A stretch of 64,000 bases of DNA from Rugalucina vietnamica (Eukaryota > Mollusca > Bivalvia > Lucinida > Lucinidae): NCBI GenBank assembly GCA_964017185.1, contig OZ024872.1:59389817-59453816 (forward strand), given 5' to 3'. Positions 14,648 through 57,268 of the stretch are shown piece by piece (position 1 is the stretch's first letter; every line of letters begins with the position of its first letter). The position numbers were made by a program, and so were the translations under genes. A model generated the notes under the pieces. The model was not told where the DNA came from, did no database searches, and was given only the letters and a program-made list of their open reading frames with translations.

Positions 14648-14743
14648 AGTTTGAATGCACTCACCACATGTCAACCATGTGTAATTCTATTTATTTTTGA
14701 TAAAATAAAGGCAGCAGCTAGGGATACGGTACCATATCTGTAG

Positions 14744-14785
14744 CCTGTGGGCTAGGGATTCGGTACCGTATCCCTAGCCCACAGG
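14744..14785. repeat. 42-bp palindrome in the FB-1 left arm
   Basis: The stretch from CCTGTGGGCTAGGGAT to its mirror ATCCCTAGCCCACAGG is self-complementary except for one pair. A perfect 16-base palindrome GATACGGTACCGTATC lies next to it (14791-14806) and recurs in the right arm (17677-17692). Confidence 0.85.
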
Positions 14786-15161
14786 CTAAAGATACGGTAC
14801 CGTATCTGTAGCCTATATATCGGAAATGGCTAAAGGTACGGTATAGATTAAAAATTGATTATATAATATTTTCAGGTGAGTTTTAAGTTGAATCATCCTA
14901 AAAGGCTAAAGATACGGAAGACTAGAGACACAGACTTAAGAAAACAATGTTAATGTATAAAGTTGAGAGATTTCAATTTTATTTCTAATCCCGTGGAACG
15001 AAATTTTCAATTGTTATATTTGAGTGTGTGTTTGTGCAATATCACCATTATCTACATACAATTATATGACCGACATCGAAGGATATAAAAAGTTTCTAAC
15101 GATGCATGAAGATAATAACAAGATAATAACAAGATAATATTAGCCTCAATTAGTTGCTTAA

Positions 15162-16532
15162 GCCCAGGTTACATTTGCCCCGATCATCGTACGATTTTTC
15201 GGTCTGCGATTTTCTCTACGATTTTTAGACATGGTAGGAGATCGTGGGCTACGACGTATGTGTTAACAATTCATACGGGCATCGTGCGATTTTTTGATCT
15301 GCCATTTCCCCATTTGTCGACGTTCTCATACAAAAATGCAAGGCGATCGTACGGCAGTCGTATGTCTCCGCAGATAGTACGTAGATATGGTACGGATCCC
15401 GTGCGTTGTCCGTACGGAGTCCCTATACGTTTTGATACAAAACGCAAGGAGGCCGCACGGTAGTCGTAGGGTCTCCGCAGACTGTTAGTGGGTATCCTAC
15501 GGAGTCCCTTGGACTTCTGACTGATGCCTTGGTTACATTCGGCCTACGATTAGCTTGCGATGATCGTACGATGCCATTTTTTTTGCATTTTCGTGCGGCC
15601 TCCGCAGGGTGACCTTACGATGTCCCTTCCTACGATCTCCGTAGCCTCTACGATCTTGTAATAGTCTGCACTATTACAAATTTTAAAATCGTAAGACCGT
15701 AGACACGTCGTAGGGCATCATACGGGCACCGTACGGATACCCTGCGATAATCGAGCGGTCACCGCTCGATTTTTTTATGATAATTTGGGAACAAAAATCG
15801 TACAGTGATAGTAGGGAGGCCGCAAGGGGTCATGCCTAGTAGGTTACATTTGCCCCAATCATTGTACGATTTTTCGGTCCGCGATTTCCCTACAATTTTT
15901 TAAAAATCGAATGTGAGCATGGGCTACGACGTAGGTGTTTACAATTCATACGGGCATCGTTCGATTTCTTGTTGTAGCTTTCTTCAATGTCCTGAGTCGG
16001 AACTGTTTGGAGATCGTAGGGAAATCAAAGGGTCTCCGCACACTTTAAGTTGAAATCGTACAGAGCCCGTGCGATGGCCGTGAGGAGTCCTTACCATTTC
16101 TTGCTGTCTCCCTATGATAGCCGTACGATGTTAGGTGTCTGTACGATTTTAATAAACTTGTGATATAACCGTACGGATGCCGCACGATCACCCTAAAGGT
16201 CTACGATTAATTTATTATTTTAGTCCCAACATTATCATAAAACCGTGCGGTGACCGCACGAGCATCGCAGGGTTTCCGTAAGGCGCCCGTACGATGATGC
16301 TACCTACGACGTGTCTACGGGCTACGGTGTTACGATTTTTAAATTTTGTAAAAGTGCAGACTACTACAAAATCGTAGAGGCTACGGAGATCGTAGGAAGC
16401 CGTAGGAAGTCGCAGGAAGCCATAGAATCGTAGGGGCATCGTAGGGTCACCCTGCGGAGACCGCACGAAAATGCAAAAAATGGCATCGTACAATCATCTC
16501 AAGTTAATTGTAGGGCAAATGTAACCTAGGCT
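15162..16532. mobile_element. Composite TTAA element with GTTACATTTG ends, nested in FB-1
   Basis: TTAA flanks both sides (15158-15161 and 16533-16536). The ends are GCCCAGGTTACATTTGCCC and the inverse GGGCAAATGTAACCTAGGC. The interior is made of repeated CGTACGAT, CGTAGG and CCGCACGG words in both orientations. Extra internal end sequences (near 15524 and 15838) show that several copies are nested or fused. A simple copy lies at 33861-34278. TTAA duplication suggests piggyBac- or Kolobok-type mobilisation. Open frames in it are compositional. Confidence 0.65.
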
Positions 16533-17021
16533 TTAACCATCAATATGATGTCTGCGCCTCAAGGTGCGAACAACAAACAAAACAGTAATGAAGTGTTGAT
16601 TTATTTTGTCCTACCGCTTAACCCCTGAAGTAAGACATTTGCCAATTATTATTTGGCGAATGCTTTTAACTTTTGTTATGGTTAAGCAAGTAACTGCAAT
16701 GTAATATAAAACAATTAAGCTATAACTCAATTCAATCGCCGTATATTTTAAAACATGCAGGCAAGTCTTGATTCATACCGTCAGAATGGCTCTTATACTT
16801 CACATCGGTCAAAAAGTTGAAAGCATTTGAAAGTGCTATTGAGCACTATCAGAAGGCCTAAAGCGTTCAGTTCTCTAAGAGAGATAGAAGTGTAGAAAAG
16901 GCGCAAGTGCCTATTTCGTATAAGTTGAACGAAAGACTAAAATACTATGAGGTTAAATTCAGGTGTATTCACGGCGTCACGGCGGCAAGAACTTCAAGTC
17001 TCGAGGAACAGGAGTGAGAGA

Positions 17022-17063
17022 ATCTATCTATCTAAATCTATCTATCTATCTATCTATCTATCG
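17022..17063 (+). repeat. (TCTA)n microsatellite
   Basis: About ten TCTA units with one interruption. Confidence 0.9.
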
Positions 17064-18037
17064 CTGCAGATAAAGACACGGCGTAAATTTGAACTGCAGC
17101 TCTCCACGTCAGTGCATTTACTTGAAAATTTAAAAGAAAGTACGCTTCGTTTACACGTTTTCTTGTTCTCGTGATTGTTTTCGATTTTTTTCTTTTTGCG
17201 TCGAAATGATTGAGATACACATGTATGCTCCTTTATCTAAGGAGTTTTCTTTTTATTTAAAAATTTACAAGCGATTTTCTATTAAAATCAAGTAATAAAA
17301 TGCCTAAAATGCAATCGAAATATAACATTTTTATACCAGATTTAATGACCAAGACTAGCCAAACTGATACTCCAATTTAATATGTTTGAAAAACATGCAA
17401 GCCGCCCTTGTCTCGTACGTTTTTTAGTTGTTATATATATGCATAATTTCCCAAGCAATTAAAAACAATTAACGCTACTACTGTTAAGATTATTGTGCAT
17501 GTGTAGAGCCTGCCCAACCATGAAACTGTGGGAAAAGGTAAGACACCCATAAATGTTTATTTTTATGATTCATTAGGAAACTTGCAATGCTTCAACTTAA
17601 AACTCACCTGAAAATATTACATTATCAATTTTTGATCTATACCATACCTTTAGCCATTTCCGATATATAGGCTACAGATACGGTACCGTATCCCTAGCCA
17701 GTGCCTAAAATAAAACCATCAAGGTCCGCAACGTAGTGGAGTGAGGTTTCGCAACTACTATTGTGAACAGCTTCCGGCAAGCTGTCCATAAAAGTTACTA
17801 ACTTTTCATAGCGCACACACCGCGGTTGTAGATGCCAGAATTGGATTCTACCGCTATTACTATACAGATTGTGGAGGCAATGTGGCTCTAACTTACTTTG
17901 TATATGCAGTTCCAATATCAAGAATGACAACATTTTTATCACCAGTGTTTAAACCCTCATACAGAGGCATATTTAATTCATAAATGATCAAATCTAATAA
18001 ATGTTTCTCGATTATTATTTTTTTTTTTTAGAATAAA

Positions 18038-49198: not shown

Positions 49199-50395
49199 GC
49201 GGTGTGTGTTATCACCGGATCGGTCAGGATCGGACTGGATCGGACATAATTACCGGATCGGACCTAAATTTCCCTTTTATTACGACTTTCACATGCTTTC
49301 ACTTGAATATTTCATGCCATATCATCATACAAAACATGTCCAGTGCTTAAAGTGGAGGTACAAATGAATTTATAAGGGTAACAGGACCGAAATACTGGAA
49401 GAAAACCTAACTACCATTGATTTGTTAGTTTCTCTTTAGTATGGAAAAGAGATCATCGAATGCTGTGTAATCAATTGCTATTTATAAATCGTTTTGTTTC
49501 AGTCAATGCAAGAAAAGTTTAAAATAGTCAGTTGAATATTTTCAGATAGTTTTTAGTCCGTTTTGTATAGTTTGGCATGGCTGTGTACATATTTGGTATT
49601 TTGGAATCTTCAAACACGAACCTAGCACCTTGCCACCAGATACAAAGCTCTTAATTGGAAAAGAACAACTATGATCACCCAAAACGTTCCTCAAAGGGAT
49701 AGGATTTTAAACTGCATGATTATAGCTAAAGTTTGTTTCGTAGTGTGATAATGTTTTTCGCAGATATTTTACAACTGTTCAAATGTAGAAGAAATATTTT
49801 CTTGACACAATTAAGCATCTAGTGTGTAGCAAAATGTGCAGTAAACATTTTGAAAATCGGTTGACAAATAAAAAAAAATCTGGAAAACATTTTGAAAAGG
49901 GATTTCCTGTACAAAAATCTCATGGAATGGAGGTAAATACTTTCCCGCAAACATTTTTAATTCTAACTATTTAATCATGATTGCTCAAAATTATTATAAA
50001 TTGACACAAATGACATACATGAGACAAAATCTTCATGATCAGGTAAAATTCTCGAAAAATATGCAATTGTCACGATCATCGATTATGTCCCTTGCCAATG
50101 CAAAATCCCTGTGCAAAACTCATTTTGGCAATAAAAAAACTTTATTTGTTCGCCGATTTTCAAAATTTTTGCAGGTCCTATTAGGACAAACTAAGATGAA
50201 GATTTTGAAATGAAAATATGTTGTTTTTTTTTTTTTATGTCATCCCCCATACAAAAATCTTCTGCGAAAAACCATAAACAGTGGCAAGTTTTTAGACTTT
50301 AGAATAAGTCTTAACACCAATGGAAAATTAGGTCCAATCCGGTAATTACGTCCGATCCGGTCCGTTCCGGTCCAATCCAGTGACTGCACGCACTC
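49199..50395. mobile_element. Foldback-like element FB-2 with CGGATCGGAC arms
   Basis: The left arm (about 49215-49275) carries CACCGGATCGG, GGATCGGACTGGATCGGAC and TAATTACCGGATCGGACC. The right arm (about 50330-50385) carries the reverse complement: GGTCCAATCCGGTAATTACG, TCCGATCCGGTCCGTTCCGG. It spans about 1.2 kb with no coding region. Ends and target duplication are not resolved. Confidence 0.55.
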
Positions 50396-50585
50396 TCTGT
50401 TATACCTGTTATACCTTCGGCCACACCCTTGGGTGCAGCCTAGGGGTTAAGCAACCGAGTCATAGAAACCCATGTATTTCTCTGAAGTGTCTGTTGATGG
50501 CGTTTTTGAATCTGTTCACCGTGGTAGCTGCTATTACTTGCTCTGGGAGTCGATTCCATGCGTTAATAACACGTTATATTATTTA
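50396..50585 (-). mobile_element. LINE RT extreme C-terminal fragment
   Basis: The minus strand reads AWNRLPEQVIAATTVNRFKN then INRHFREI and a stop. This is the usual end of jockey/CR1-type LINE proteins. Confidence 0.65.
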
Positions 50586-53097
50586 TATATGAATCCAAGC
50601 ATTCTAGTTTATTGCTCAAAACATCTCTAAATTCGTTCAATTTACTGCTATCCCATACTATTTTTGTAACTTCGCTTTGCTCCTCCTGAACTGTACTTTT
50701 CACATTTGCTAATAATGAAAATTGTATTGGTGCATGATCTGAATATACAGAAATGTCATGAATGGTGAATTTGCTAATGATATCAAATAATGTGGGAGGA
50801 AAAAGAACATAATCAATTAAACTGCAGCCTTGTACAGACTGAAAAGTGTAATTTCCTATACCAGCATCATCGCCAAGCCGGCCATTGACTATTCGTAAGC
50901 AAGAATCCCTGCAAATTTGCATTAGCCTTTTACCTGATGTGTCAATATTTTTGTCTAAGGAATATCTCCTACCGACCGGGCATTCATTGCAATCATTTAA
51001 CACGGCTAACAAACCTTTAAATGCGTAACCGCGGTTAAGAAAAGAAATCTGATTCATGTCCTTCGGGTTTCGCATCAGATGACCAACAAAAGGTAAACAG
51101 ACTTTTGCAGCTCGTGTTTCCAAGTAAAATATTTCGATTCGAAGACAAATATTATAATTCTCTCAATGCTATTTTATTAGTTAGACATTGCTATATTTGG
51201 ACCCCAAAGGATTTCCAGAATTTTTTCTTTATAATCATGATTTTATTCCCTACCCCAAAACAAATGTTGGGATTGCATTGTACACGACGAAAATGTGGGT
51301 CAGTCGCAGGGATATTTTTAGATTTCCGCTCATTACGTCCATATTAACGGAAAGCAATACAGTGCGCAGATGATTTTAACATTGTGTGAGGTCTGGTGAC
51401 AGTTTCGTCGCCTCTGGCCAATGCATTCTATGCATATATGGTAAAAAGCTGTGTCAACATTTCGGTTACGAATTTAATCATTAGAATGATAGCAATATAA
51501 TCATTATAGAACACATGTATTAAAGTTTTTGTTTTTGTTAATTGTTTTACGCTGAAGATTATTGTCACATTCTCTCGTCCTTTCTTGATAGGTGCTTACT
51601 CAAATTTGTTGTGTTTGTCATACATGATTTGCAGTGAAAATGTTTGATATAAAATAATACTCACTGTCTATGAAATACATGTAATACAATAGTTCACATG
51701 CATGAACTGTTCCTGTTCATGAAGACGATTTTACAGCATTCTGTATACTTTAATTTGTTTGTTTCTTGGTTTTATGTCTTTCAAAACGCTTTACAGGGAA
51801 ATAAATACCATAACTTGAACAGATTGAGGTTTTCAAACGTATCTTGAAATATATCCTTCATATTTTAATGATTAAATGCGTACCCATCTTTTCCTTCCCT
51901 TCAAATCGATGATGCCGGGCACTAACTCAACGAAATACTGGCACAGACATCAGATGCAATTTAGTTAATACATATCTGTAAATTTGTCGTGGAACAATCG
52001 CTAAAATTTGATATTTACCAGCAAATTGTCCAATTTTTGGTTGTATTTCGCCGACTTTGGCCTTGTTGGAACACCAGGTTCGAAGAAGGGAATAAATAAC
52101 TCAAAGACCATTAAATTATTTTGCGAGCTACTTTGGTGCTGACTTACAATAGTAAATAAGTGACAAAATAGCATTCATAGATAATCGATATATTTCTGTA
52201 CTAAAATATAATCATCAATCGATCCTAGTAGTGTATGTTTTGTTTACATTTTCTTGGTCTTCATATGCGCAACCGGAAGGGCGTGAATCGGATTTTCTTT
52301 CTTAACCGGCGGTTACGCATTTAAAGGTTTGTTAGCCGTGTTTAAGTCAGCACCATGTAAACAAGGAATATATCTATCAAGGTTTTCACAGTTTTCAAAC
52401 TGATCGCTAGAAAGTCCTGTTCTGGCATTCAAATCGCCTATAACTGCAACTTTGCCAAAATCTGCGTAATGGCGTATATCAATCTCTAAAATGTCAAACA
52501 AGTTTGTGTCTACATTTTTAAAGTATACCGAGTCTTTAGGTGGGATATAACGAAAGCAAATGAACATGTCATTTTCAAAATTAAAGTACTTTTTACATAA
52601 TTTGACCCATAGGAAGCCGGCAGGATTTGTGTCTACCACCTCGATACCAGACAATACTGAATTGCATATAAATAGGCAAATACCACCGTGCCCACGCTAA
52701 CCCCTGCCCCGTATTCGCATACTTTCTGGTCTTGGTACACAAATGCATTTATACCCATTTATTTGAAATTGCTGCTACTCTTCTGCCATGTTTCGGAACA
52801 AAAAATCAAATCATTTTCTGATACAAAATTCAAAAAGTCACTGTCTTGTAAACATGGACCTAAACCTTCAACGTTCCAAGTCACTATTGACAAGCCATGC
52901 CCCTCTCCGGAACCCTAGTCAACAAATTTCCCGTTAACACATAGCCTGTCCCTGACGAGTGTAGCCTTGTTTCCCGCTGCCCTCTCGCTAATCAGCCGTG
53001 GAATGAGTTCCTTACGACGCTCAAGCACCTCGGGTGGAAGTTGATCAGTTATAACCCTAAAAGCGCCGTTATATGGAGGTTGTTTCAAGTCAACCTT
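50563..53097 (-). mobile_element. LINE 5' half: ORF1 end and APE endonuclease, interrupted by a TTAA element
   Basis: From 53097 down, the minus strand encodes an ORF1 C-terminus (PPYNGAFRVITDQLPPEV, then TLVRDRLCVNGKFVD, stop near 52918). ORF2 follows at once (VTWNVEGLGP, FCSETWQ). The endonuclease continues in 52654-52313 (CFRYIPPKDSVYF, VIGDLNARTG). It resumes after the insertion at 51000-50563 (RYSLDKN, LRIVNGRLGDDAGIGNYT, SLIDYV, SDHAPIQFSL). The RT half is missing at the 3' side. The endonuclease blocks are co-linear once the insertion is recognised, apart from small frame losses near 52680. Confidence 0.75.
51001..52341. mobile_element. TTAA element with CACGGCTAACAAACC ends, inside the LINE endonuclease
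   Basis: Inverted ends of about 60 bp (CACGGCTAACAAACCTTTAA... and its mirror) enclose 1.34 kb. TTAA is duplicated at 50997-51000 and 52342-52345. It splits the endonuclease between ANKPL- and RYSLDKN-like residues. No transposase is visible, so it is non-autonomous, with a piggyBac- or Kolobok-type duplication. Confidence 0.75.
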
Positions 53098-53099
53098 AC

Positions 53100-53730
53100 C
53101 TTATCTATCAGGAGCTGAATTAGTGTGTATTTAGCACTCACTGGATATTTGTTGATTAATTCTTCAAGAACACGTACAAAGTCAATGAGTATAGGTTGTC
53201 GCGCTTCTTCTAGAGTCTTACAGTCCAATAAGAAATGTTGAAGCGTTTCATCGTCTTCTTAAAATAACTGACACACTGGGTTCACTTCATTTTGATTAAA
53301 CTTAGCTCTGTTCGTTTGTAGGATATATGTGCCAGTCAAAACTTTATTCTTCACTGGTCTTCTTTACATAACTGACACACTGGGTTCACTTCATTTTGAT
53401 TAAACTTAGCTCTGTTCGTTTGTAGGATATATGTGCCAGTCAAAACTTTATTCTTCACTGGAATCCTTAAAATGTCTCTGTCACTGATTAGACATGGTAA
53501 TACCGCAGAATGACATTTGCCAACAGTATATGTTTTGGAAAGATACTTCAATGAAGAGTACAGTCTTGATTGTGATATGATTTGGTTACTCCAGTAGTTG
53601 TTAATAGCAGTATTAAAGTCTCTTTTCCAGGCTAGCTTTTCAATTGGATTTTCAAGTAATGTCTCTGGATCCGGAAGGTTATATTTTACTTGTATACATA
53701 ACTTTATGCAGAAGTTTTCAGTAAGTGAAT
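53100..53730 (-). mobile_element. LINE RT C-terminal fragment with an internal tandem duplication
   Basis: The minus strand reads WKRDFNTAINNYW, SRLYSSLKYLSKTY, VLTGTYILQTNRAKF, NPVCQLCKED, then a LINE-end text towards TLIQLLIDK. About 100 bp is duplicated in direct orientation (about 53260-53358 and 53360-53460), breaking the frame. It lies head to head with a different LINE fragment starting near 53735. Confidence 0.65.
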
Positions 53731-53734
53731 CAGA

Positions 53735-54233
53735 AGCTCAGACATGTACTATGTCAGATATTATATCTACCAAATACAAGTGCGACTTAAATACTGAACT
53801 TTCAAGCCTGAGGCGACAGATCCAGGATAATAAATTATATACTTTTTCAAACATTTACTCAAACTTTTCATTACAAGATTACCTTTCATTTGGGCTTCCA
53901 AAAGACAAAACTAGAGAGCTAGCAAAACTTAGAATAAGTGCCCATGATCTATTAATAGAACGAGGTCGCTATTTTAGACCTCGGATTCCTCGTGAGAGTA
54001 GACTTTGTACTAGTTGTAATGAAATTGAAGATGAAGAGCATTTCATGCTGTATTGTTCTATGAATTCTGAGCTTAGAAATGATTTATTTAAAACACTGAA
54101 TATAACTTATCATGATTTGAAACCTGGTAGTGATGCCTCATTCAATGCATTTGTTCATTTAATGAACCCAGCAACTGCTGAGGAGACAAAGTATGTTTGT
54201 GAGTTTATAACAATGTCTCTTGTCTTAAGATAA
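53735..54233 (+). mobile_element. LINE RT C-terminal fragment
   Basis: The open frame reads SLQDYLSFGLPKDKTRELAK, LRISAHDLLIERGRY, then a CCHC-like motif (CTSCNEIEDEEHFMLYC) and a stop at 54233. LRIS.H.L.IE.GR followed by C..C..H...C is the conserved end of many invertebrate LINE proteins. The first 40 codons of the same open frame are antisense to the previous LINE and are not real. Confidence 0.7.
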
Positions 54234-54370
54234 CTTGTAATGCTAACTGTTATGTCATATTATCTCATCATATTCATTCAACATCCCTCATCGCACTCAT
54301 GTACATGTATGTTGTTGTATGTTATAAACATGTATTGGAGGACACCGACTGTTATGGAGGTTATCTGAAT

Positions 54371-55728
54371 GGTAACTGGACAACTCGGCCCATAACAAAC
54401 TCGGCCCATGACAAACTCGGCCCATAACAAACTCGGCCCATACAAACTCGGCCCATGACAAACTCGGCCCATATCCAACTCGGCCTCTATTTATAATATT
54501 GATACAATATGAATTTTATAGTACGATTAAAGGAATATACAAGTATGTTTTTAGTCGGTAATAGCTTTAAACAGCTAATGTTATACTGTTTATACTTTCC
54601 GACTTTTAAATAAAATTTTGTCTTGTCTAAATGTTATAGCTACATGTATTGATAGATACAAATTACAAGGTCTCATATATACTTAAATCATTTATATACT
54701 CGTCTTTATATATATACACTACTTGTGTCGATATAAAATGTGGTATTTTTTATTATTTGAAATGGATTAAATTTTTTAGGACATTAAAAAAGAGTCATGT
54801 ATTTATTTTAAAACGTGAGAAATTTTTCTTAACAGTGGCAGATATGTTTGAAAATTGTGTTTCTTAAAACGCACATACATGTAGCCGACAAAAACGTTAT
54901 AGACTTTGGTGGACTTATCTTTTTAATAAGAAAAATTTCCCCCTGATTTTTATTAGAAAACACATATTGAACAAAAATAAGAGGGAAAAACTAAACAATT
55001 AAATAAATAAAAAACGACACGATAATGTATAAATATTTGTTTTATCATTTAATAATTTTAACAATTTAAAACATGCAAGTATACCAATTATCTTTTAATA
55101 AATATGGTACACGTAGTCTGAACTGTGATAATTACATTGGTTTGTTCAGTAATTGTTTGTTTAGTATAATTGACTGAGTTCTTCATCCAAACAAATACAT
55201 GTACGGTCATTGCCCAATTACTGGTCAGGTGTGACAAAACATTATCAATGGTCGTTCTTTTTTAACTGACTGACTTTCTTTTATATATGATAGGCATACT
55301 CACGTCCATTTCTTTCCTCTTTTTTTTTCTTTCTTTCAACTATGCCCATCATCGATAATAAACTCAGCGTAATGACAAACTCTGCATTACATGCACTTGA
55401 AAATTGTTTGTAAAGGCTTTAAATCTTAATTATTACCAGTCATATTTCATTGAGAATATGGATTGGAAAGCAGCCTGGTGTTGCTAATATGTGTCATCTT
55501 CAAATATACTAATACTAAAAATGATATTTTCTATCCAATCAATGTTTATAACTTCCTATAATACTCAGCAATGAGGTTGTCGTAGTATCTAGTAAATAGG
55601 GGCCGAGTTTGTATGGGCCGAGTTGGTATGGTCCTTGATTTGGTGGCCGAGTTTGTCATGGGCCGAGTTTGTAAAGGGCCGAGTTTGTCATGGGCCGAGT
55701 TTGTTATGGGCCGAGATGTCCCGGAATC
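54371..55728. mobile_element. Foldback-like element FB-3 with ACTCGGCCCAT arms and 8-bp duplication
   Basis: ATCTGAAT is duplicated at 54363-54370 and 55729-55736. The left arm has six units of about 18 bp (ACTCGGCCCATRACAAA). The right arm has the inverse (GGGCCGAGTTTGTCATG). Between them lies about 1.1 kb of AT-rich DNA without coding capacity. Inverted arms built from short direct repeats are the Foldback design. Confidence 0.75.
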
Positions 55729-55965
55729 ATCTGAATAAATCTTGTATCTTGTATCTTGTACAAGAACTTTTTTCACAGCGATAAACCAGCTATGACTTTT
55801 AAATGACTTCACTTCTATCTTTTGGCTTACTGATATTCCACAGAATCATGTGAAAGTCTAGTATTATTTCCGTACAAGGCTAACATTCTTTTATGCTTCA
55901 GCAGGAAGAGTCCCCGATAGAATATCTACTGCCAATATCCATTTCGCCAAAATATGCCCATTTCG

Positions 55966-57181
55966 GGGAAGGAGTAAAACCCGGGACCAACGCCCGGGAC
56001 CCGGGACCAAAATCCGGGACCAATTTTTATTGGCACCAAAAAGGCACTAAGCGTGCAAATAATTACATGAAATTTACACCATATATAGTTTAAAGGGTCT
56101 TCTCAAAGGTCCTTATATTTGTCTTCCAAGCATATTCGAAATATCTGTGAATTTGACCAAAATATAGGACCCCATCAAGGAATTTAGACCCGCGACCAGT
56201 TTTTGCGGTATTGACGATGTTAGGGAAATTGCAATTTTTGTCATTGTAATCATTTGGTAAACAATTATTTTCATGTTTTGCTAACTGTATACATATCAAA
56301 GAAAGCTAGAATGAAAAAATCTGCAATGAAATCCCACAGATATTTGAGATAACCAGCCCGGGACCAACCCGGGACCAAAATTTCCATAATTCATTGTTTG
56401 CGCTATTGACGTTGTCATAACATTAACTATTTTCTATCCCACAATTGTTTGCTTAGCCATATATGCACCTTTAAGCCAAGTCTTAAGATGTTACTTAAGA
56501 AAAAATATCTTAAATGCATCCCATATTGATTTAGAAAATAAGTTTCATAGGACGGGACCAAACTGGGATTATCGCAATAAATCTAAGCATTTTTGTTATT
56601 TTGGTCCCGCGTTGGTCCCGGTCTGATTTCCTCCGTAATTTTAATAAATATCAACGATAATTTTGCATTTTGATCTTCTTTAATAACATACCAGATGACA
56701 GCTCATTAAAATAATTGTATGTAAAAAAAAATGAGATTTACTTGACATCGCAAATATGGATCATAAAATTTGATCCCGGATTGGTCCCGGGCTACCTTTC
56801 TCCTACATTTATGAAAATTCTAAACGGACTTTTTCATTTTAGTATTCTTTGACATGTTAACAGATGGCAAAACATAAAAATAATTGTATATGAAGCGATT
56901 ATAATGGCAAAAATCACGAGTTATCGGACATCGTCAATACCGCAAAAATTGGTCCCGGGTCTAAATTCTTGGATGGGGTCCTATATTTTGATCAAAATTT
57001 CATACAGTTCGAGATTTTTGGGAAAACGATGATATACATCATTGAAAAGACCCTATAAACTACACTTAGGCCAATTTTTATTTTATTTGTTGCACGCAAA
57101 ATGACTTTTTGATGACCGTAAAAATTGGTCCCGGATTTTGGTCCCGGGTCCCGGGCGTTGGTCCCGGGTTTTACTCCTCCC
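55966..57181. mobile_element. Foldback / MULE-like element FB-4 with CCCGGGACCAA arms and 9-bp duplication
   Basis: CCCATTTCG is duplicated at 55957-55965 and 57182-57190. The ends are GGGAAGGAGTAAAACCCGGG and, inverted, GGGAGGAGTAAAACCCGGGA. Homology of the arms continues at least 240 bp inwards, through ATATAGGACCCCATC and GCGGTATTGACGATG. GGGACCAA words recur in the left half and TTGGTCCC in the right half, so most of the 1,216 bp is one large imperfect palindrome. It is inserted about 90 bp upstream of the MYND ORF. Confidence 0.8.
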
Positions 57182-57268
57182 CCCATTTCGTATTTTAGGA
57201 CAATCCCTTGAATGGCGGAAGGATGAAGGCTGTGTTCACGTCGAGCGCGCTGGATTTTATGAAATTTT

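Follow-up and report, generated by a model that had tools for sequence, protein, structure and literature searches.

Sea urchin TU and Drosophila FB/NOF elements carry outer arms built of short direct repeats and produce 8-9-bp target duplications. Both traits, as generally described for TU and FB/NOF, recur in a 64,000-nucleotide stretch (the window) of the 1.09-Gb genome (47 contigs) of the lucinid bivalve Rugalucina vietnamica, which holds the elements FB-1, FB-2, FB-3 and FB-4. FB-2, FB-3 and FB-4 add new families to an already known type of element, the non-autonomous foldback transposon, and the open-access papers searched gave no description of them. On the whole, they are likely to be cut-and-paste DNA transposons, with FB-3 driven by a Phantom-type MULE transposase and FB-2 and FB-4 by other transposases of the same superfamily.

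Among described systems, the Mutator/Foldback element Tm1 of root-knot nematodes combines 7-bp asymmetric outer motifs, a following GGA and 13-15-bp tandem words with 8-10-bp, mainly 9-bp, duplications in 45 of 53 elements; one member carries a Phantom-type FLYWCH and MULE transposase, and others are non-autonomous and resemble miniature inverted-repeat transposable elements (PMC3169594, in the sections drawn on here). FB-3 and a Phantom family of the clam genome likewise have 7-bp asymmetric ends, GGA and words. Compared with the same sections on Tm1, they differ in word and outer motifs, several families with different words share one genome, and the tips of FB-2 and FB-4 are near-symmetric. 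Tetris of Drosophila virilis is also non-autonomous, with foldback arms, internal tandem units, 8-10-bp duplications and arm ends in common with another element, although its units measure ~220 bp and, in the portion of the paper used, its authors found no transposase (PMC4079207). A missing transposase can leave a foldback element unclassified, which is the situation of Tetris in that account (PMC4079207). Here, unlike in Tetris, a transposase-bearing element with nearly the FB-3 tip was found, and its tips tie one such family to a Phantom-type MULE with foldback arms. Galileo, of the P superfamily, resembles the clam elements in its long arms with tandem repeats and differs in its P-type transposase with a THAP domain, according to the relevant part of PMC3688188.

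Foldback elements of the window and their genomic families

An inverted-arm search of the window scored FB-4 at 329 bits, FB-3 at 132 bits and FB-2 at 75 bits. In 20 dinucleotide shuffles of the window, with arms lying within 6 kb, the best score per shuffle was 30-43 bits, so the three are inverted-arm elements with scores far beyond chance. The main features are as follows.

14710-17705, no strand: FB-1 as taken here, tips GGCAGCAGCTAGGG and GGCACTGGCTAGGG, 9-bp duplication TAAAATAAA
49200-50395, no strand: FB-2, inverted arms with the word GGATCGGAC, tips CGGTGTGTGTTATCACCGG and GAGTGCGTGCAGTCACTGG (reverse complement of the right end)
49726-50302, plus strand: unrelated, abundant repeat nested within FB-2, ends CTAAAGT... 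and ...ACTTTAG
54363-54370, plus strand: left target duplication of FB-3, ATCTGAAT, 8 bp
54371-55728, no strand: FB-3, asymmetric tips GGTAACTGGACA and GATTCCGGGACA, arrays of ~16-bp words ACTCGGCCCAT, AT-rich middle
55729-55736, plus strand: right target duplication of FB-3, ATCTGAAT, 8 bp
55957-55965, plus strand: left target duplication of FB-4, CCCATTTCG, 9 bp
55966-57181, no strand: FB-4, palindromic over nearly its whole length, with tips GGGAAGGAGTAAAACCCGGGACC and, in each half, four clusters of the words CGGGACCA
57182-57190, plus strand: right target duplication of FB-4, CCCATTTCG, 9 bp

The exact word occurs three times on the plus strand and once on the minus strand for FB-2 (GGATCGGAC), six and three times for FB-3 (ACTCGGCCCAT), and four and four times for FB-4 (CCCGGGACCAA), with every exact window occurrence falling within one of these elements. 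The preliminary description is borne out in its account of three elements with inverted arms of short direct repeats, of clear 8- and 9-bp duplications at FB-3 (ATCTGAAT at 54363 and 55729) and FB-4 (CCCATTTCG at 55957 and 57182), and of a 237-bp gap between these two, which agrees with coordinates 54371-55728 and 55966-57181. The FB-4 duplication becomes 8 bp when read with the family's consensus tips. Arms of short direct repeats with target duplications place the elements in the foldback structural class, the window copy of FB-2 having no clear duplication at its ends, in keeping with the preliminary description, which names clear ones for FB-3 and FB-4 alone. That description does not mention the repeat nested in FB-2 or the palindromic build of FB-4. 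FB-1, presumed to be the element so named in the preliminary description, is of the same kind.

FB-3 has 600 candidates in the genome, 40 of which were scored. Five other copies have pieces that match the window copy at 92-98% identity, while the remaining scored ones are more distant, indicating a family of mixed age. Its exact tip gives 135 genome matches and its word pair, with up to three mismatches, gives 1,278, compared with none for the reversed tip and none for the word-pair control. In all ten copies whose ends were fetched, GATTCCGGGACATCTCGG and GGTAACTGGACAACTCGG, or slight variants of them, form the boundaries. Eight show exact 8-9-bp duplications, one of which has an additional base at a junction. 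Of the other two, one matches at 7 of 8 bases and L085, whose tip is duplicated, has none. Further duplications come from L007 (TCCAGCAAA), L069 (GCCCAAGG) and the window copy (ATCTGAAT). The copy at L069 (133-5387) is 5.3 kb long and holds a non-long-terminal-repeat (non-LTR) retrotransposon, with a single 1024-aa open frame encoding endonuclease and reverse transcriptase, together with a 653-bp direct repeat.

FB-4 is represented by 319 candidates. Among 40 scored, 36 are near full length (window copy included), and the others of these 36 are 94-98% identical to the window copy. Duplications, read beside the tips GGGAAGGAG.../...CTTCCC, are exact in 26 of 30 fetched copies, again counting the window copy (11 of 8 bp and 15 of 9 bp); script values of 9/10 bp at offset -1 contain the tip's last C and were counted as 8/9. 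The remaining four comprise one 7-bp duplication with one extra base and three copies without a duplication by script. Twenty-nine oriented copies, aligned without the longer copy L015 that carries an extra FB-4 piece, diverge only 0.7-2.1% (mean 1.25%) from their majority sequence, pointing to a recently active source. At L014 (1121-2768), an FB-4 copy lies within inverted ends CACAGATACTTG that have an 8-bp duplication AATGGACC, apparently another element that took an FB-4 insertion. Viral contigs contain no match to the exact FB-4 tip pattern or the exact FB-3 word pattern.

The FB-2 family appears older, since the main pieces of its copies (185 candidates, 40 scored) are 72-86% identical to the window copy. 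Both tips are readable in 3 of 13 fetched copies, and two of these three have 8-9-bp duplications: 9 bp by eye in L070 and 8 bp in L076. The third, L078, has an imperfect duplication by eye and none by script. In L077 and L079, the distances between the tip and the FB-2 words are 17, 27, 37 and 55 bases. The repeat nested in FB-2 at 49726-50302 (~577 bp, ends CTAAAGTCTG and AGACTTTAG) has 3,088 candidates in the genome.

Tip comparison with a Phantom-type MULE

Genome searches for transposase genes covered Merlin (PF12762), MULE (PF10551) and FLYWCH (PF04500) profiles, yielding 56, 59 and 47 matches. By eye, FLYWCH and MULE matches lie within 2 kb on one strand at eight loci, a pairing described for Phantom elements (PMC3169594, in part). 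Besides the genes on C2 and C7 treated below, these loci are C4:28509550, C12:13319973, C2:78379505, C3:70960610, C3:70979864 and C2:46936242. In the row consulted in PMC6446971, Phantom is listed with 8-10-bp duplications from flatworms, arthropods, tunicates and an ichnovirus, without molluscs. For two sister FLYWCH and MULE genes, on contigs C7 and C2, the 991 bases upstream were compared; they are 95% identical as far as the start of a word array in the C7 copy. This C7 arm is an array of GGACAAAATCCCCCC words, which another repeat interrupts in the C2 copy. A genome search with the arm returned 463 candidates, and in the 40 scored the similarity stops at a single base, marking the tip. 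Inverted partner arms occur at five places (C2, C7:16193920, C7:16201673, C7:41271629 and C4).

The C2 element extends from 47333611 to 47340702 (7.1 kb) and encloses both the FLYWCH (C2:47337405) and the MULE (C2:47335856) matches between tips GGTATCCGGACAAAATCCCC and GAATGTAGGGCAA, with CTCTAAGAC as a 9-bp duplication on both sides. Two small relatives have duplications ATTTCTCAT (exact) and ATTCACGGA/ATACACGGA (one mismatch), so that two of three duplications in this Phantom family are exact and one has a single mismatch. The tip GGTATCCGGACAAAATC has 170 exact genome matches, compared with none for a reversed control.

The Phantom tip GGTATCCGGACA matches the FB-3 tip GGTAACTGGACA at 10 of 12 positions, and the pair at the other end matches at 7 of 12. 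When the Phantom tips were shuffled 200,000 times at constant composition, such a match arose with a frequency of 1.3e-4 for the first tip and 5e-6 jointly, values uncorrected for the twelve tips in the comparison table and for how they were paired. The tip GGTA(A/T)C(T/C)GGACA is common to FB-3 and the Phantom family, whose words differ. In both, the first 7 bp are asymmetric and the inverted part starts only beyond them, with GGACA or GGGCA coming next. Three traits bear on Phantom membership of FB-3: a tip in common with a transposase-bearing element, 8-9-bp duplications that are exact in eight of ten copies, and a FLYWCH and MULE pair that resides in the tip-sharing C2 element, not in FB-3 itself. 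Because of the tip match and the common asymmetry before the words, FB-3 is very probably a non-autonomous foldback element of the Phantom/MULE group, which a Phantom-type MULE of this genome either moves or gave rise to.

The other families fit this tip less closely. Tips of FB-1, FB-2 and FB-4 agree with Phantom tips at 3-6 of 12 positions, and those of FB-1 to FB-4 agree mutually at 3-7 (FB-2 being represented by the tips of its family, not of the window copy), whereas the two ends within FB-1, FB-2 or FB-3 agree at 8-10. What FB-1, FB-2 and FB-4 have in common is duplication length and anatomy, not tips, suggesting several cognate transposases within one superfamily; FB-2 and FB-4 are probably members of the superfamily that includes FB-3, with other cognate transposases. 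The preliminary description had envisaged one mobilisation system acting on sequence-unrelated arms, recognisable by a shared terminal motif and by non-random duplications. Its expectation for the duplications is supported (26 of 30 in FB-4, 8 of 10 in FB-3, 2 of 3 in FB-2, 2 of 3 in the Phantom family, and 9 bp in FB-1). Over the first 12 positions, the idea of a common system and motif survives for FB-3 and Phantom, which match at 10 despite different words, and is not supported among FB-1 to FB-4. A single transposase moving all four elements is accordingly very improbable: they have equal duplication lengths and mostly G-initial tips, and FB-3 and Phantom show that one tip can accompany different words, but the four tips agree too little. 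Furthermore, a genome scan for the common tip with any base but A after it matched 184 times, compared with 155 for the reversed control, revealing no further large family of this kind.

A different possibility is that the transposases moving these families come from some other group that makes 8-9-bp duplications, such as the Merlin, P/Galileo-like or hAT superfamily, and that the foldback shape is convergent. Duplication length alone does not separate the MULE, Merlin, P and hAT groups, and Merlin elements make 8-9-bp duplications. The 56 Merlin-type matches show that such domains occur in this genome, and Galileo indicates that foldback arms are possible in the P superfamily (PMC3688188 and PMC3573991, in the parts used). 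Against this, both ends of the Merlin locus L104, ATTGCACTTTAGCGG, agree with FB tips at 1-4 of 12 positions, one end of the Merlin locus L103 reads by eye as AATGCATTTTAGCGG, unlike the FB tips, and the FB-3 tip matches that of a Phantom MULE. The three Merlin loci read, of 56, gave no sign of a Merlin source: the tips of L104 (both ends) and L103 (one end) are unlike every FB tip, and for L106 no ends could be located. The FB-4-like start seen at L103 does not enclose the Merlin gene, since it lies 1.7 kb downstream and points away, and no FB tips were seen at L105, which has OTU and MULE matches. Overall, a non-MULE source for these families is unlikely.

Several observations weigh against a Phantom-type MULE origin, in addition to the presence of Merlin domains. 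The second FB-3 tip shares 8 of 12 positions with the first Phantom tip, as against 7 of 12 with its partner, and the near-symmetric tips of FB-2 and FB-4 are unlike those of the one Phantom family read. Beyond the tips, the arms resemble the Phantom arm no more than shuffles do: 41 and 46 of 150 shuffles reach the FB-3 score against the Phantom arm, as do 12 and 38 for FB-4; for the arms of FB-1, FB-2 and the small element at L022, 62-143 do so. The FB-4 word GGGACCAAAATCC had looked akin to the Phantom word GGACAAAATCC by eye, a kinship rejected because 12 and 38 of 150 shuffles score as well. Among the small part of copies read, no FB-2, FB-3 or FB-4 copy codes for a transposase, and L069, the sole long FB-3 copy read whole, was rejected as an autonomous FB-3 since its contents are a non-LTR retrotransposon. 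The two Phantom copies on C2 and C7 have short gene frames (67-209 aa) and therefore need not be active.

Repeated words and a proposed mechanism

FB-4 offers a natural test of word function, as its words stay constant while the remainder drifts between its halves. The halves are 66% identical overall, with 96% identity in the 71 word columns and 63% elsewhere, a difference that none of 625 circular shifts equals. Words with at most one mismatch lie 17, 30, 37, 50, 226, 394, 405 and 588 bases from both ends, the right half having one additional word at 577, and the outermost 60 bases are identical between halves. The spacers resemble diverged ~180-bp units, one pair being 70% identical and others 60-62%. 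Between the FB-3 window copy and L007, words are 96% identical and other positions 84%. The conservation of FB-4 words at mirrored positions suggests, as the simplest reading, that the words are secondary transposase-binding sites kept by selection. Galileo has binding sites within its tandem repeats, identified by footprinting and electrophoretic mobility shift assays (PMC3688188, in part).

Alternatively, the words may be functionless products of slippage or gene conversion in fast-evolving arms. Slippage readily expands short tandem words, and the number and placing of intact words vary between FB-3 arms. Two further observations favour this explanation and count against selected binding sites. 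When FB-4 copies are compared with one another, mutations are just slightly fewer in words than in other sequence, at 0.0083 versus 0.0121 per non-CpG site and 0.0142 versus 0.0282 per CpG site (significance not computed). Moreover, relatives do not preserve exact spacing: where 17, 50 and 226 would be expected, the words of a divergent FB-4-like fragment at L103/L107 stand at 17, 30 and 193. The opposite proposal, that relatives keep word spacing, was rejected on this fragment, the only divergent relative read, which is alike only over its first ~218 bases; across the whole stretch its word columns are 41% identical and others 42%, a result reached by 778 of 1317 shifts. What speaks for binding sites is that FB-4 words occupy the same eight positions from both ends while the intervening sequence has drifted to 63%, a register that re-amplification after drift would lose. 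Functionless words are on balance a rather unlikely explanation.

If the words are binding sites, a transposase would recognise the outermost ~12 bp as the place to cut and would bind the repeated words of each arm as secondary sites, and transposase multimers might then pair both arms. The element would be excised and inserted at a staggered cut, with gap filling over 8-9 bp yielding the duplication. By this route a Phantom-type transposase may cross-mobilise FB-3. Were such binding shown, the purpose of foldback-arm words would become directly testable, with several natural word variants in one genome. A more speculative and rather improbable extension is a two-part address code, in which a Phantom-type catalytic core reads a tip common to families (FB-3 and the Phantom element) while family-specific DNA-binding domains read each family's own words, set in fixed register from both ends. 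Word swapping under a constant tip would in that case diversify families, allowing one catalytic system to serve many sequence-unrelated foldback families.

Neighbouring features and further elements

Frames in the window include an FMO-like one and a MYND-finger one, and the frame at 53598-54233 near FB-3 has no Pfam match. Directly after FB-3, positions 55729-55765 form a TATCTTG-repeat tail resembling the 3' end of a non-LTR element. Another inverted-arm element (CACGGCTAACAAACCTTTAAATGCG...) occupies 50996-52345 with TTAA at each side, outside the 8-9-bp class. It sits between minus-strand frames 50563-51162 and 52313-52696, which resemble one frame that it split. Elsewhere in the genome, L022 (2865-3301) holds a small foldback-like element with tips GGTGGGATATAA and GGTGGGGTATGA, words CTGCCGAGCC and a 9-bp duplication CGCACCTCG.

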